The notes under the pieces: generated by a model
The model's input: only the letters and a program-made list of their open reading frames with translations
What the model was told of the DNA's origin: nothing
Databases searched by the model: none
Origin: Halopseudomonas xiamenensis
GTDB taxonomy: Bacteria; Pseudomonadota; Gammaproteobacteria; Pseudomonadales; Pseudomonadaceae
Direction: 5' to 3'
NCBI RefSeq assembly: GCF_014219065.1
Contig: NZ_JACLGO010000025.1
Location: 1 to 64,000 of the forward strand
Length of the DNA: 64,000 nt
Made by a program: the position numbers and the translations under genes
Shown here: positions 47,341 through 53,960 of the stretch, one piece after another
How positions within the stretch are numbered: position 1 is the first letter of the stretch
How the letters are laid out: each line of letters begins with the position of its first letter

Positions 47341-48252
47341 ATGCTCAATAAAACCATCAACTTCATGCGCTGGCGTAAGCCTTTCTACGCCATTGCACTC
47401 CTGTTCAGCCTGTTCTCCATTGGCAGCCTGGCGGTCAAGCAGCTCAACTTCGGTCTGGAGTTCACCGGCGGTGCCCTGGTGGAGCTGAACTACAGTGAGC
47501 CGGTCGAGCTGGAATCCATCCGCCAGACGCTGCATGGCGCTGGCTGGGGGGATGCCATTGTGCAGAACTTCGGTTCCACCTCGGATGTGATCATTCGCCT
47601 GGCCAGCGAGGATCCGGAGCTGGGTAACCAGATCGCCCGACTGATCCAGCGTGAGGATGCCGAGCAGGACGTGACCATCAAGCGTGTCGAGTTCATCGGT
47701 CCGCAGGTGGGCGAAGAGTTGCGTGACCAGGGCGGCTTGGGCATGCTGCTGGCCCTGGCCGGGATCATGCTCTATGTCGCGCTGCGTTTCCAGCTCAAGT
47801 TCGCCGTGGCCGGTCTGGTGGCGCTGTTGCATGACGCCATCTTCACCCTGGGGTTGCTGTCCTTCTTCGGCGTTCCCTTCGACCTGACGGTGCTGGCGGC
47901 GCTGCTGGCGGCGGTCGGCTACTCGCTGAACGATACCATCGTAGTGTTCGACCGGATCCGCGAGAACCTGCGGCTGATGCGCACCTCAGACCTGACCCAT
48001 GTGATCAACGTATCCACCACCCAGACCCTGGCGCGTACCCTGGCTACCTCGGTCTCGACCATTCTGGTGCTGATGTCGTTGCTGATGGTCGGTGGTGAGT
48101 CACTGCAGGGCTTTGCCATCACCCTGATCATTGGCGTGGTGATAGGTACCTACTCGTCGATCTACGTGGCCAACGGCCTGCTGATCAACCTCAAGCTGAC
48201 CCGTGAGGATCTGATTCCCAAGCAGTTGGAAGAGGTGGACGACCGGCCCTGA
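47341..48252 (+). CDS. secF: protein translocase subunit SecF
   Basis: Partner of SecD, 303 residues, six membrane helices. It starts MLNKTINFMRWRK after GAGGAG seven bases upstream. The FGLEFTGGALVEL motif lies in the first periplasmic part, and the conserved helix region reads GYSLNDTIVVFDRIRENL. The YcfJ-like gene I recall between secF and suhB in P. aeruginosa is absent; a terminator and REP elements fill that gap. Confidence 0.97.
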   Translation: MLNKTINFMRWRKPFYAIALLFSLFSIGSLAVKQLNFGLEFTGGALVELNYSEPVELESIRQTLHGAGWGDAIVQNFGSTSDVIIRLASEDPELGNQIARLIQREDAEQDVTIKRVEFIGPQVGEELRDQGGLGMLLALAGIMLYVALRFQLKFAVAGLVALLHDAIFTLGLLSFFGVPFDLTVLAALLAAVGYSLNDTIVVFDRIRENLRLMRTSDLTHVINVSTTQTLARTLATSVSTILVLMSLLMVGGESLQGFAITLIIGVVIGTYSSIYVANGLLINLKLTREDLIPKQLEEVDDRP

Positions 48253-48269
48253 GTTCAGGGGCGTGCATG

Positions 48270-48304
48270 AAAAACCCGGCTGCCGCGAGGCGCCGGGTTT
48301 TTTG
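48270..48304 (+). terminator. rho-independent terminator of the secF transcript
   Basis: A stem with arms AACCCGGC and GCCGGGTT closes about 40 bp past the secF start of the gap and is followed by a run of six or more Ts. An A-run on the left arm may also allow termination from the other side. Confidence 0.9.
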
Positions 48305-48352
48305 TGGCCTGCCGTCCGTGGCGGCAAGTGGGTTGCGATGGGGGCTGGGGGT

Positions 48353-48420
48353 GTAGCGCCCCTGCGCTACGCCGAGTCTCGGCGGGCAGGGAGGTTGTCG
48401 TCGAGCGGGGGCTCGACAAC
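48353..48420. repeat. REP-type hairpin pair between secF and suhB
   Basis: GTAGCGCCCCTGCGCTAC (48353-48370) followed by a second hairpin with arms TCGAGC/GCTCGA extended by GTTG/CAAC (about 48394-48420). The first hairpin is identical in form to the array units at 61.5 kb; the second is diverged. Confidence 0.7.
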
Positions 48421-48487
48421 CCCGGCAAAGACCATCCCGGCGCAGATGCCGCGCCCTGGGGTGTGGAGGCGCTTCAGGGTCGGTCGA

Positions 48488-49303
48488 TCAGCGCTTCATC
48501 GCCGGTGTCAGGTGCGGCTGGATGGCAGTCAGCACGGCCTTGAAGCACTTGGGGTTGCCGGCTACGACATGACCCTTTTCCAGGAACTGGTGGCCACCGG
48601 TGAAGTCGCTCAGCAGGCCGCCGGCTTCCTGGATCAGCAAGCTGCCTGCGGCCATGTCCCACTCGGCCAGGCCGAATTCCCAGAAGGCGTCATAGCGACC
48701 GGCGGCCACGTAGGCCAGGTCCAGGCTGGCGGCGCCGCAGCGGCGAATGCCGGCGGTCTGGCCGACCAGGCTGCGGAACATGCCCAGGTAGTTGTCCAGC
48801 GACTCGATCTGGTCTTCCTTGAACGGAAAGCCGGTACCGAGCAGGGCGCCTTCCAGGCTCTTGCGTGGGCTGACGCGCAGGCGCTTGCCATTCAGTGCGG
48901 CGCCGCGGCCACGGCTGGCGGTGAATTCTTCCTGGCGCACCGGGTCCAGTACCACGGCATGTTCGATACGGCCCTTGATGCGGCAGGCGATGCTCACGGC
49001 GAAATGCGGTACGCCACGCAGGAAGTTGGTGGTGCCGTCCAGCGGGTCGATGATCCAGACGATATCGGCGCCTTCGCCATGCCCGGGTTGGAAACCCGAT
49101 TCCTCGGCGTGAATGCCGTGGTCCGGATAGGTCCGGCGCAGTTGCTGGATGATTGCCTGTTCCGCAGCCCGGTCGACCTCGCTGACGTAGTCGTTCGCTT
49201 CCTTCTCGTTGACGGTCAGGACATCCAGCCTTTCCATGGAGCGGTAGATCAATTCTCCGGCGCTGCGCGCAGCGCGCAGGGCGATATTCAACATGGGCTG
49301 CAT
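48488..49303 (-). CDS. suhB: inositol-1-monophosphatase family protein SuhB
   Basis: A magnesium-dependent phosphatase, 271 residues, whose E. coli homologue also acts in rRNA antitermination and ribosome assembly. Metal-binding motifs are EESGF, DPLDGTTNF and the WDMAAG signature near residue 213. The ATG giving MQPMLNIALRAARSAGE is the family start; the open extension upstream is not conserved. It is divergent from trmJ, the usual order in pseudomonads. Confidence 0.95.
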   Translation of the reverse strand: MQPMLNIALRAARSAGELIYRSMERLDVLTVNEKEANDYVSEVDRAAEQAIIQQLRRTYPDHGIHAEESGFQPGHGEGADIVWIIDPLDGTTNFLRGVPHFAVSIACRIKGRIEHAVVLDPVRQEEFTASRGRGAALNGKRLRVSPRKSLEGALLGTGFPFKEDQIESLDNYLGMFRSLVGQTAGIRRCGAASLDLAYVAAGRYDAFWEFGLAEWDMAAGSLLIQEAGGLLSDFTGGHQFLEKGHVVAGNPKCFKAVLTAIQPHLTPAMKR

Positions 49304-49463
49304 ACGGGGTATCTCTGATAGGGGTACGGAAAAGCCGGACATTATAGCAGAGTTGTCGGGCGACTTGCACAAACGATCATGCCGCCATCGTAGGCAGCGA
49401 CAGCCGAATTTTAGTAAGATGCGGGTCTTTCCTTTTCCGCATCGCTGCAACTCTGGAGTGTCC

Positions 49464-50243
49464 GTGTTCGATAAAGTACGTGTGGTCCTGGTGAACACCA
49501 GCCATCCCGGCAATATTGGTGGCGCAGCGCGGGCCATGAAAAACATGGGCCTGAGTCAACTGGTGCTGGTCGATCCCGAGCGTTTCCCGGACCCTGAAGC
49601 GGTATCGCGTGCCTCCGGGGCGGATGACCTGCTGAGCAATGCGCGGGTGGTCGCCACCTTGGAGGAAGCACTGGCCGATTGCGTGCTGGTGCTCGGCACC
49701 AGTGCCCGTGACCGGCGCATTCCCTGGCCGGTGGTCGATCCGCGGGAAGCGGCCGACAAGGTGCTCGACCAGCTCGAAGGGCCGGCCAGCGGCCCGGTGG
49801 CGCTGGTCTTCGGTCGCGAGGATTCCGGCCTGACCAGTGACGAGCTGCAGCGTTGCCGCTTCCATGTGCACATCCCGTCGAACCCGGAGTTCAGCTCGCT
49901 GAACCTGGCGACCGCAGTCCAGGTGCTGGCCTACGAACTGCGTATGCAGAGCCTGCAGCGCCAGGGCCAGCCGACCAAGATGCAGAAGATCGAAACCACG
50001 GCGCCGGACAATGAAGTACCGGCCACGGCCGAGCAGATGGAGTTGTTCTACCAGCATCTGCAGCAGGTGCTGGTTGAAATCGGCTTCCTCGACCCCCAGC
50101 ATCCGAGGAAGCTGATGTCCCGCCTGCGTCGCCTGTATGGGCGCAGCCAGCCGAATGTGGTGGAGATGAACATCCTGCGCGGCATCCTGACCGAAACCCA
50201 GAAAGCCATCGGCGTACAGGCGTCCGGTGCGCGGAGACATTGA
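49464..50243 (+). CDS. trmJ: tRNA (cytidine/uridine-2'-O-)-methyltransferase TrmJ
   Basis: A SPOUT-fold methyltransferase modifying position 32 of tRNAs, 259 residues. The N-terminal motif [20 protein letters not shown] and the SAM-binding knot motifs ([11 protein letters not shown] and [16 protein letters not shown]) are clear, with a C-terminal helical extension. The start is GTG at 49464, with TGGAG five bases upstream. The cysE gene starts two bases beyond its stop. Confidence 0.95.
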
Positions 50244-50245
50244 GT

Positions 50246-51061
50246 ATGTTCGACAGCATGAAGGAAGATATCGCCAGCGTATTTCACCGTGACCCCGCTG
50301 CGCGTACCCGGCTCGAAGTGCTGCTCTGCTATCCCGGCCTGCATGCCATCTGGCTGCATCGCCTGGCCCACTGGTTCTGGCGTCGCGATGCGCGGCTGCT
50401 GGCGCGCATGGTGTCGAACCTGGCGCGCTGGTTGACCGGTATCGAGATCCATCCCGGCGCCAGGCTCGGCCGGCGCTTCTTCATCGATCATGGCATGGGC
50501 GTGGTGATCGGTGAGACCGCCGAGATCGGTGATGACGTGACCCTGTACCAGGGCGTGACCCTGGGCGGCACCAGCTGGAACAAAGGCAAGCGCCATCCGA
50601 CCCTGGAAGACGGCGTGGTGGTCGGGGCCGGGGCCAAGGTGCTCGGCCCCTTCACCGTCGGCAAGGGCGCCAAGATCGGTTCCAACGCGGTGGTCACCAA
50701 GGCGGTGCCGGCCGGTGCCACGGCGGTGGGCATTCCCGGCCGCATCATCATCAAGGAGGAGACTCGGGATGATGAGCAGCAGGTCAAGCGCCAGGCCATG
50801 GCCGAGAAGATCGGTTTCGATGCCTACGGCGAGACCCGCGACATGCCGGACCCGGTGGCCAAGGCCATTGGGCTCATGCTGGATCACATGCATGCCGTCG
50901 ATGGCCGTATCGAGGGCATGTGCAAGGCACTGAACGAGCTGGGCAGCGACTACTGCGCCCGTGATCTGCCGAAACTGGATACCGAGGATTTTGAAGCGCT
51001 CATGGAAGACGCGGACATCGAACCGTCCGCGCAGGATGCTGATGCCTCCAAGTCGCGCTGA
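50246..51061 (+). CDS. cysE: serine O-acetyltransferase
   Basis: Makes O-acetylserine from serine and acetyl-CoA, the committed step of cysteine synthesis. It has 271 residues. An N-terminal helical region is followed by a left-handed beta-helix of hexapeptide repeats ([19 protein letters not shown], then GVTLGGTS and [18 protein letters not shown]). The C-terminal tail (about 90 residues) is longer than in E. coli CysE, as is common in pseudomonads. It is ten bases upstream of iscS, tying cysteine supply to sulfur mobilisation. No iscR separates them. Confidence 0.94.
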
Positions 51062-51070
51062 GGTTTTACC

Positions 51071-52225
51071 ATGAAGTTACCGATCTATCTCGATTACGCT
51101 GCCACCACTCCGGTCGATCCGCGGGTGGCGCAGAAGATGTGTGCCTGCCTGACCATGGACGGCACCTTCGCCAATCCCGCGTCGCGCTCGCATCTGTATG
51201 GCTGGCAGGCCGAGGAGGCGGTGGAGCTGGCACGGCGGCAGGTGGCCGATCTGGTCGGTGCTGACCCGCGGGAGATCATCTGGACCTCCGGGGCTACCGA
51301 ATCCGACAACCTGGCGATCAAGGGCGCCGCGCATGCCTTCGCCGAACGCGGCCGGCATATCGTCACCTCGCAGATCGAGCACAAGGCAGTGATCGACAGC
51401 TGTCGCCAGCTGGAGCGCGAAGGCTTCGAGGTCACCTACCTCAAGCCCGGTGCCGATGGCCTGATCACGCCCGAGCAGGTTAGCGCGGCGCTGCGCGAGG
51501 ACACCATCCTGGTGTCGCTGATGCAGGTCAATAACGAGATAGGGGTGATCAACGACATTGCTGCCCTGGGCGCGATGGTGCGCGAGCGGGGCATCCTGTT
51601 CCATGTCGATGCCGCCCAGTCCACCGGCAAGTTGCCGATCGACCTCAAGCAGTTGCCGGTCGATCTGATGTCCTTCAGTGCGCACAAGAGCTACGGCCCC
51701 AAAGGTGTCGGCGCGCTCTACGTACGGCGTTCGCCGGATGTGCGCATTGAGGCGTTGATCCACGGTGGTGGCCATGAGCGTGGCATGCGTTCGGGCACCC
51801 TGGCGCCGCACCAGCTGGTCGGCATGGGTGAGGCCTTTGCCATGGCGGGGGCGCAGATGGTGAGCGAGACCCGGCGCATTGCCGCACTGCATGCGCAGCT
51901 GCTGGAAGGCCTGGCCGGACTGGATGGGGTATCGCTCAATGGCTCGGCCGAGCACCGCGTGCCGCACAACCTGAACCTGGCGTTCAGCGGGGTGGATGGC
52001 GAGCTGTTGCTGCTGGCCCTGCGCGACCTGGCGTTGTCCACCGGCTCGGCCTGCACCTCGGCCTCGGTCGAGCCGTCCTACGTGCTGCGCGCCATTGGCC
52101 TGCCGGACGGTCTGGCGCACAGTTCCATCCGTCTGTCGCTGGGTCGCTACACCACCGAGCAGGACGTGCAGCAGGCTGCCGAGATCCTGTGCAAGGCGGT
52201 GACAAGGCTCCGCCAGACCGGGTAA
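51071..52225 (+). CDS. iscS: cysteine desulfurase IscS, lacking the C-terminal tail
   Basis: A PLP enzyme that takes sulfur from cysteine as a persulfide. The protein is collinear with E. coli IscS from [20 protein letters not shown] onward: His104, the PLP Lys206 ([10 protein letters not shown]) and the persulfide Cys328 (GSACTSAS) are in the same numbered positions. It ends at residue 384 (RLRQTG), so the last 20 or so residues of the E. coli protein (404), which contact the scaffold IscU, are missing. The usual neighbours iscR, iscU, iscA, hscB, hscA, fdx and iscX are absent; ndk follows after 120 bp. The enzyme looks active but may serve thiolation or another scaffold. Confidence 0.92.
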
Positions 52226-52256
52226 TACGGCGTTTCAACTCGATTGTCGGGGGCTG

Positions 52257-52286
52257 TTACGCATTTGCGGTCAACCTGCGTATAAT
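52257..52286 (+). promoter_or_regulatory. likely sigma-70 promoter for ndk
   Basis: A perfect -10 TATAAT (52281-52286) with a weak -35 TTACGC 18 bp upstream, in the gap between iscS and ndk. It suggests ndk has its own promoter. In the usual gene order this position follows iscX. Confidence 0.5.
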
Positions 52287-52345
52287 CTGCGGGTTAACAA
52301 TTCCTGTTATCCCAAATCCACCTTTTTTACCTTCTGGAGAGTTTC

Positions 52346-52777
52346 ATGGCCGTAGAACGCACCCTGTCCATCATCAAGCCCGATGCCGTCGCCAAGAACG
52401 TGATCGGCCAGATCCTGAGCCGCTTCGAGCAGGCCGGTCTGAGCATCGTTGCGGCCAAGATGGTGCAACTGTCCCAGGCTGACGCCGAAGGCTTCTACGC
52501 CGAGCACAAGGAACGCCCCTTCTTCAAGGACCTGGTCAGCTTCATGACCTCCGGCCCGGTCGTGGTACAGGTGCTGGAAGGCGAAGGCGCGGTACTGAAG
52601 AACCGTGACCTGATGGGCGCCACCAACCCGAAGGAAGCCGCTGCCGGCACCATCCGTGCCGATTTCGCCGAGTCGATCGACGCCAACGCCGTACACGGCT
52701 CCGACTCCGCGACCTCCGCTGCCCGTGAAATCGGCTACTTCTTCGCCGAAACCGAGCTGTGCCAGCGTACCCGCTGA
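52346..52777 (+). CDS. ndk: nucleoside diphosphate kinase
   Basis: Balances NTP and dNTP pools through a phosphohistidine intermediate. It has 143 residues. [13 protein letters not shown] is the N-terminal signature, and the active-site histidine is in NAVHGSDS near residue 118. GGAGAG lies just upstream of the ATG. It is followed by rlmN after 34 bp, the conserved order in pseudomonads. Confidence 0.98.
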
Positions 52778-52811
52778 GCCAGCCGCAGACACCAACGAGT
52801 GATGTATCGCC

Positions 52812-53960
52812 ATGACTGACACGACCGGCAAGATCAACCTGCTGGGCCTGACCCAGGCCAAGCTGGAGGCCTTCTTCGAGGAGCTCGGGGAAAAGCGCTT
52901 TCGTGCCGGGCAGGTCATGAAGTGGATCCATCACTTTGGTGTCGACAATTTCGATGACATGACCAATGTCGGCAAGGCCCTGCGCGACAAGCTCAAGGCC
53001 TGCGCCGAGATTCGCGGCCCGGAAGTGGTCAGCGAAGATATTTCCAAGGATGGCACGCGCAAGTGGGTGGTGCGCGTGGCGTCCGGTAGTTGCGTCGAGA
53101 CCGTGTATATCCCGCAGAATGGCCGCGGCACGCTGTGCGTGTCCTCGCAGGCCGGCTGCGCGCTGGACTGCAGCTTCTGCTCCACCGGTAAGCAGGGCTT
53201 CAACAGCGACCTGACCGCCGCCGAGATCATCGGCCAGGTATGGATTGCCAACAAGTCCTTCGGCACGGTGCCGGCCAAGGTCGACCGAGCCATCACCAAC
53301 GTGGTGATGATGGGCATGGGCGAGCCGTTGCTCAACTTCGACAATGTGGTCGACGCCATGACCCTGATGATGGACGACCTCGGTTACGGTATTTCCAAGC
53401 GCAAGGTGACACTGTCCACCTCCGGCGTGGTGCCGATGATCGAGAAGCTGGGGCAGGTGACCGACGTGGCCCTGGCGCTGTCGCTGCACGCGCCGAACGA
53501 CGAACTGCGCAACCAGTTGGTGCCGCTGAACAAGAAGTATCCGTTGTCGGTATTGCTGCCGGCCTGCAACGCCTACATTGCCGGGCTGGGCGAGAAGCGC
53601 TTCCTGACCATCGAGTACACCCTGCTCAAGGACGTCAACGACCAGCCGGAACACGCCCGGCAGATGATCGAGCTGCTGCGCGAGACGCCGTGCAAGATCA
53701 ACCTGATTCCCTTCAACCCCTTCCCGTATTCTGGTTACGAGCGGCCGAGCAACAATGCCATCCGCCGTTTCCAGGACCTGTTGCACAACGCCGGCTACAA
53801 CGTCACCGTGCGCACCACCCGGGGAGAGGATATCGATGCAGCATGCGGACAACTGGTCGGCCAGGTCATGGACAGGACCCGGCGCAGTGAACGCTATATC
53901 GCGGTACGCCAGCTTGCCGATGAGCAGGCCGGCGTGACCGTACCGACAAATCGCCGATAA
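52812..53960 (+). CDS. rlmN: dual-specificity 23S rRNA/tRNA adenine-C2 methyltransferase RlmN
   Basis: A radical-SAM methyltransferase acting on A2503 of 23S rRNA and A37 of some tRNAs. It has 382 residues. The Fe-S cluster cysteines are Cys116, Cys120 and Cys123 (GCALDCSFC), and the substrate-linked Cys lies near residue 357 in [11 protein letters not shown]. It requires a [4Fe-4S] cluster, so Fe-S assembly must exist in this genome despite the missing isc genes here. Start as given. Confidence 0.96.

Follow-up and report, generated by a model that had tools for sequence, protein, structure and literature searches.

The iscS gene of Halopseudomonas xiamenensis encodes a type-I cysteine desulfurase that, judged from sequence comparison, is most probably a remnant of an iscRSUA-hscBA-fdx-iscX operon, retained to supply sulfur for tRNA thiolation once the SUF system had taken over the assembly of clusters. 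The encoded IscS lacks the C-terminal tail of its E. coli counterpart, and the absence of the tail characterizes the genus as well as many other families and is not confined to one strain. The gene was found in the window, which denotes here the whole analysed stretch of 64,000 nucleotides (positions 1 to 64,000 of contig NZ_JACLGO010000025.1, assembly GCF_014219065.1).

Gene arrangement around iscS

All genes described here are on the forward strand of the window. The gene trmJ for the tRNA Cm32/Um32 methyltransferase (49449..50243, start approximate; NF011694, 291 bits vs. a cut-off of 280) is the probable first gene of a trmJ-cysE-iscS unit. It is followed by cysE for serine O-acetyltransferase (50246..51061; TIGR01172, 261 bits vs. 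210.65), a gap of 9 nt from which iscR is absent (51062..51070), iscS for a protein of 384 amino acids (51071..52225; NF010611, 627.6 bits vs. 548; TIGR02006, 614 vs. 643.2), a gap of 120 nt without a tail-like reading frame (52226..52345), and ndk for nucleoside diphosphate kinase (52346..52777; NF001908, 221 bits), which was assigned also by synteny, its place in relatives with ISC being after iscX. The 382-amino-acid ORF at 52812..53960, which we take to be rlmN, was used as a synteny marker and belongs to the right flank common to the isc loci of relatives.

The original prediction, made from the DNA sequence of this region, had placed cysE, iscS and ndk nearly adjacent with gaps of 10 bp and 120 bp; the near-adjacency and the second gap stand, and the first gap is corrected to 9 nt. 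It had also taken cysE, iscRSUA-hscBA-fdx-iscX and ndk as the usual order in pseudomonads, and this order was indeed seen in Pseudomonadaceae loci. Among 18 long loci of this family, cysE was found upstream of iscRSUA-hscBA-fdx-iscX in 13 and ndk-rlmN downstream of the isc operon in 16; in four, the trmJ-iscR interval gave no cysE, and the locus of G047 had no neighbour on either side. In the window, the gaps on the two sides of iscS (9 and 120 nt) are too short for the genes of HscA, IscA and IscX.

The gap between cysE and iscS ranges from -1 to 26 nt in the 33 Halopseudomonas loci measured, so that iscS immediately follows cysE and iscR does not intervene. The gap between cysE and iscR is 94-132 nt in the six ISC Pseudomonadaceae measured, and just 18 and 23 nt in two ISC genomes from outside Pseudomonadaceae. 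We infer that iscS may be co-transcribed with trmJ-cysE and may thus have escaped from IscR. A promoter scan of 48200-53000 gave no sigma-70 site; a TATAAT is present at 52281-52286 in the iscS-ndk gap, for which the scan gave no fitting first hexamer.

The tail-less IscS

As originally predicted, IscS of the window is collinear with E. coli IscS, with His104, Lys206 and Cys328 aligned and present, and it ends at residue 384, without the tail formed by E. coli residues 385-404. Its match to TIGR02006 spans model positions 1-380 of 402. A tail hidden by a frameshift was considered and rejected, as none of the three forward frames over 52170-52349 contains an LSPLWDMYK-like tail. An intact IscS of 382-384 amino acids was found in 35 of the 37 Halopseudomonas genomes (H. 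xiamenensis included), and a local frameshift is therefore excluded. Of the remaining two genomes, G016 (83% complete) gave no IscS, and G003 has a split IscS, whose 5'-cut piece has the same end. The iscS gene is flanked by trmJ-cysE and ndk-rlmN in all 36 loci of the genus, except that in G003 and G008 the contig ends on one side. IscS of the relative Pseudomonas sp. MYb185 (G036) is 95% identical to that of the window.

ISC, SUF and tRNA-thiolation genes in the genome

The genome of H. xiamenensis (4.28 Mb, 82 contigs) is rated 100% complete. The joint loss of the ISC parts, which had been proposed for scaffold, chaperones, ferredoxin and regulator together, held for IscU, HscB and the Isc-type ferredoxin and failed for the regulator. 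No NifU_N (PF01592) match, indicative of IscU, was found in the genome, while the same search was positive in 12 of 14 control genomes; the best matches for HscB and for the Isc-type ferredoxin were 26.7 bits vs. a cut-off of 46.75 and 52.4 bits vs. 132.1, respectively. A genome without IscR was rejected: an IscR-type gene heads the suf operon, with a TIGR02010 score of 206.8 bits, just below the cut-off of 207.55.

The proposal that another system assembles the clusters agrees with the presence of a complete suf operon on a separate contig (C9), where iscR-sufB-sufC-sufD-sufS-sufA-sufT-sufE are arranged in one run. Each of sufB, sufC, sufD and sufS is above an NCBIfam cut-off, and SufE is above the Pfam cut-off (162.9 vs. 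27). A second IscS elsewhere in the genome was also rejected, the other matches being SufS, an unassigned class-V enzyme and an O-succinylhomoserine sulfhydrylase. The class-V enzyme, a PLP enzyme of 385 amino acids encoded at L006:5014-6171 of H. xiamenensis, is nearest to SufS and far below every desulfurase cut-off.

Genes for tRNA thiolation are encoded in the same genome: TusA (112.6 bits vs. 78), MnmA (439.5 bits vs. 284, for a partial frame of 340 amino acids) and ThiI with its C-terminal domain, which passes the cut-off. The genes iscS and mnmA are on contigs C17 and C9, respectively. A TusA-family gene was found in 114 of 116 relatives, including every tail-less genome, and the two relatives without it are ISC genomes; confirmation of TusA by NCBIfam applies to the H. 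xiamenensis genome, and the count elsewhere is of TusA-family matches. ThiI was not above the cut-off in 12 of the 22 tail-less families outside the genus and in six of the 37 genus genomes.

Coupling of the tail to IscU

Among the 116 relatives, IscS reaches position 402 in 57, and NifU_N was found in all 57 of these. Of the other 59, in one of which no IscS was found, 58 have no NifU_N match, and G099 has SufU inside its suf operon. HscB and Fdx were above the cut-off in 56 and 57 of the 116 relatives, respectively, all of them ISC genomes. SufB was above the cut-off in 34 of the 37 genus genomes (the remaining three are 75-81% complete), in G075 and, within the order, in each of the 22 tail-less families. 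Because G075 has both ISC and SUF and keeps the IscS tail, the tail tracks IscU, not the absence of SUF. The G075 loci L127 and L256 comprise a complete isc operon together with a suf operon, and a search with the H. xiamenensis SufA found no sufA between sufS and sufT.

A class-level sample of 143 genomes, two of which are also in the set of 116 relatives, contains 61 intact tails (to position 401 or 402). A NifU_N match with E of about 1e-39 or better (weakest 1.3e-39) was found in the same 61 genomes, this line having been drawn after the scores were seen, and with G252 set aside (its strong match is a NifU-like frame of 303 amino acids, without an intact tail) and G146 kept (its strong match is a NifU-like frame of 306 amino acids, and a split IscU is located behind iscS). 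Some NifU_N match was present in 60 of the other 82 class genomes and was read only where it stood beside iscS. Intermediate states were seen as well: the IscS of G217 has a worn tail that extends to position 399, and no NifU_N match was found in this genome, and other worn tails occur in G128 and G179. In 80 named loci, which overlap in part with the genomes of the set of 116 relatives, iscU is in the fetched flank of all 61 loci with an IscS of 404-405 amino acids and of none of the 19 with an IscS of 382-391 amino acids, although in one of the latter (L156) only 64 bases follow. A chance coupling of tail and IscU was rejected on the counts in the 116 relatives and the 143-genome class sample. 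As predicted, loss of the tail tracks loss of IscU in the sampled genomes.

Several loci show other surroundings of a clipped IscS. In E. coli, pepB follows the isc operon. In Rahnella laticis, trmJ-iscR-iscS are followed by a probable pepB, and the genes from iscU to iscX are missing there. The Rahnella loci L190, L195, L200, L201 and L208 have a clipped iscS of 389-391 amino acids without an adjoining iscU, the flanks (trmJ-iscR and probable pepB) being those read in L190. Operons of suf are joined to iscR-iscS or iscS in L087, L088, L092, L094 and L271, behind trmJ in L088, L092 and L094 and before ndk in L271, an arrangement that would result if SUF took the place of iscUA-hscBA-fdx. A clipped IscS adjoins an IscU-like protein in ten loci (L236, L237, L238, L239, L240, L241, L242, L244, L245 and L248), which belong to the class-level genomes G119, G228, G243, G179, G214, G138, G154, G134, G143 and G141. 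These neighbours have lost cluster-binding cysteines (C37 in ten, C63 in seven and C106 in five of the ten), and such a cysteine-poor protein may be a pseudo-scaffold kept beside the clipped IscS.

Frataxin without ISC

CyaY is above the cut-off in H. xiamenensis (G000:C15:1297-1599, L279) and was found in 29 of the 37 genus genomes, though these are without IscU; the 22 other tail-less families gave no CyaY. Fifteen CyaY sequences of the genus share motifs unlike those of eight ISC sequences and represent a derived, well conserved form. According to the available text of PMC11446229, CyaY of E. coli binds SufS, and such binding would offer a candidate reason for the survival of CyaY without ISC.

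Footprint of the lost partners on IscS

The contacts of IscU and TusA on E. coli IscS have been mapped, and removal of residues 376-404 abolishes IscU binding, as given in the accessible part of PMC2854127; the sites of IscU, TusA and CyaY are likewise found in the portions of PMC2854127 and PMC11302665 available. Taking the sites from the accessible part of PMC2854127, we aligned approximately one IscS per family, 24 full-length and 25 tail-less; the set of TusA sites includes E49 and D52, though E49 is below the 90% line. At the 200 positions conserved in the full-length set, the tail-less set keeps 84% of the residues, which gives the background level. Against this level, 49% is kept at the CyaY/IscX sites (P 5e-5, by resampling of positions irrespective of solvent exposure) and 59% at the IscU sites (P 0.007, by resampling); TusA sites are kept at 91%, which is not above the 84% background (P 0.25), and catalytic sites at 100%.

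His104, Asp180, Gln183, Lys206 and Cys328 are all present in the window IscS and in 25 of 25 tail-less sequences. For the TusA sites, W45, R55 and R220 are present in all 25, R237 in 24 and E49 in just 15. K221 is found in none of the 25, F89 in two, R112 in four and R223 in six. The picture is not a simple one, since the ISC-site residues G234, M239, A327, G310, E311 and L313 are kept in 20 or more. The window IscS has the changes F89A, K221S, R223D, E309D, S312L, M315L and E347G and still has the patch residues R112, R116, R225, E227 and R340. Its TusA contacts W45, E49, R55, R220 and R237 are present, and D52 is replaced by E, as in 23 of the 24 full-length sequences. In the tail-less families, many contacts for IscU, CyaY and IscX have been eroded, and the catalytic residues and most TusA contacts have not. 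K221, R223 and R225 are present in all 52 full-length sequences, including those of genomes in which CyaY was not found, which points to a function of the patch beyond CyaY. It would seem that the tail exists solely for IscU and the arginine patch for ISC helpers.

History of the tail-less gene

Since iscS is located in the host's own locus, loss of the tail in place is favoured. The other possible history is that SUF and a tail-less iscS were acquired together by horizontal transfer, the incoming iscS displacing the native one, so that no tail was lost in this lineage, and we regard this as unlikely. It draws on two observations. In a tree of IscS without the tail columns, all 38 tail-less sequences are on one side of a branch (99/90), the tree having been balanced by leaving out 20 of 36 genus sequences and 10 of 31 sequences of the ISC members of the family; and the Halopseudomonas SufBC adjoin those of two other families. 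Because of this placement of SufBC, and since no SufB match was found among the 35 other Pseudomonadaceae genomes sampled, SUF itself has probably been acquired. The tail-less IscS can group together in this way if the surfaces of the lost partners changed convergently, or because of long branches. In the AU test, Halopseudomonas IscS placed with other Pseudomonadaceae was not rejected (p 0.198), and after the partner-surface columns were dropped the tree holding the genus with its family had the higher likelihood (p 0.818; short free search), this comparison omitting seven fast sequences and the dropped columns including stretches already seen to differ.

The neighbouring genes also speak against replacement. 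The iscS gene is still between trmJ-cysE and ndk-rlmN, and in a tree of rlmN, trmJ and ndk Halopseudomonas adjoins the remaining Pseudomonadaceae (support 82), with a single stray among the 17 sequences of the family. The family member G038, represented by trmJ alone, falls at the base of this tree. On the best neighbour-gene tree, with 72 of the 80 sequences and 13 of these having less than half of the columns, at least 14 changes of the tail state were counted, five of them on starred branches. In an independent-pairs test on this tree, five of five supported pairs agree, though with p 0.0625, and 14 pairs are obtained when all branches are used. The clipped IscS of Rahnella is at E. coli's own isc site and groups with that of E. 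coli. A single clade of all tail-less IscS, Rahnella included, was not rejected by the AU test (p 0.465; the two long sequences G128 and G217 removed first), and therefore the IscS tree alone cannot prove several losses.

Proposed function

Under the favoured reading, in which the tail was lost in place and IscS serves tRNA, IscS would move cysteine sulfur onto Cys328, and this sulfur would be passed to TusA and then to MnmA for 2-thiouridine 34, as well as to ThiI, where present, for 4-thiouridine 8 and thiamine. SufS-SufE would feed SufBCD for all clusters. Transcribed with trmJ-cysE and with no iscR beside it, iscS would be tied to cysteine supply, not to IscR. This role in tRNA thiolation is inferred from gene content and conserved sites.

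A role of the tail-less IscS as an auxiliary sulfur donor of SUF, charging SufE or SufB directly with the tRNA link being secondary, appears to us quite improbable. Such a role would fit the location of iscS within a suf operon or adjacent to one in five genomes (G076, G077, G088, G091 and G096); in G113 the adjoining suf operon has the opposite orientation, and in two Nitrincola loci sufB is close by. However, the suf operons with iscS in these G-numbered genomes already have SufS, and most have SufE, while in Halopseudomonas iscS is directly behind cysE and suf is on a different contig. In G088, where IscS ends with LRELSPQWRVFKEKQAAGH, the order trmJ-iscR-iscS-sufBCDSATE-ndk can be read as SUF landing where iscUA-hscBA-fdx stood. 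That iscS is a decaying leftover without an important role is highly implausible: several surfaces are eroded, but at 127 of the 200 positions at least 90% of the tail-less sequences retain the conserved residue, 25 of 25 have the five catalytic residues, and the reading frame of 382-384 amino acids is maintained in 35 genus genomes.

Returning to the tRNA-serving IscS, we tentatively suggest, as a possibility we would not yet favour, that any lineage losing IscU remakes IscS, by steps that recur each time, into a desulfurase for tRNA only. Loss of the tail would come first (the Rahnella stage), followed by that of the arginine patch and of the IscU face (in Halopseudomonas and next in the other families). 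The frataxin of Halopseudomonas would outlive ISC and be redirected, perhaps to SufS, and elsewhere the cysteine-poor pseudo-IscU would be a non-scaffold partner of the clipped IscS.

Significance and comparison with known systems

IscS is the textbook example of a sulfur hub, with overlapping sites for which its partners compete, and lineages without some of the partners provide a natural mutagenesis of this hub. The TusA face belongs to what survives on the tail-less IscS. Tail loss can serve to recognize, from sequence, genomes in which ISC has been abandoned, the tail-less IscS is a clean enzyme for the study of TusA transfer without competition by IscU, and Halopseudomonas is a genus for the study of frataxin without ISC.

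Two parts of this picture are already in print, namely the SUF-only state of Halopseudomonas and a solitary IscS, that of M. tuberculosis. The window IscS is distant from PDB 4isy, which we take to be the M. tuberculosis enzyme (254 bits vs. 580 for E. coli 1p3w). In the available text of PMC10848736 and PMC8300815, M. tuberculosis has a solitary iscS; this IscS (Rv3025c) is likewise encoded by the only isc gene of an organism with a complete SUF, and its operon has trmU (PMC10848736, same part). It differs from the present IscS in acting on Fe-S proteins as well, according to the same part of PMC10848736. Halopseudomonas and P. phragmitis have been described as having only SUF in the accessible part of PMC11559095, which concerns the same genus and gives the same SUF-only finding as ours; its available text on SUF-only genomes makes no mention of a kept iscS, a missing tail or surface erosion. 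In the accessible text of the openly licensed literature searched, no description was found of IscS tail loss coupled to IscU loss or of the surface footprint.

E. coli IscS is of the same family as the window IscS, shares its catalytic residues and most of its TusA contacts, and is 66% identical to the MYb185 IscS. It differs in having residues 385-404 and K221, R223, F89, E309, S312, M315 and E347, which are lost or changed in the window IscS, and in its ISC setting, of which IscU, HscB and the Isc-type ferredoxin are absent from the H. xiamenensis genome. YrvO of B. subtilis hands sulfur straight to MnmA, and the yrvO gene is paired with mnmA. Unlike this system, H. xiamenensis has TusA, and its iscS (C17) is not paired with mnmA (C9). 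Under the favoured reading, IscS would nevertheless resemble YrvO, which, in the available text of PMC8300815, is a desulfurase serving s2U of tRNA.
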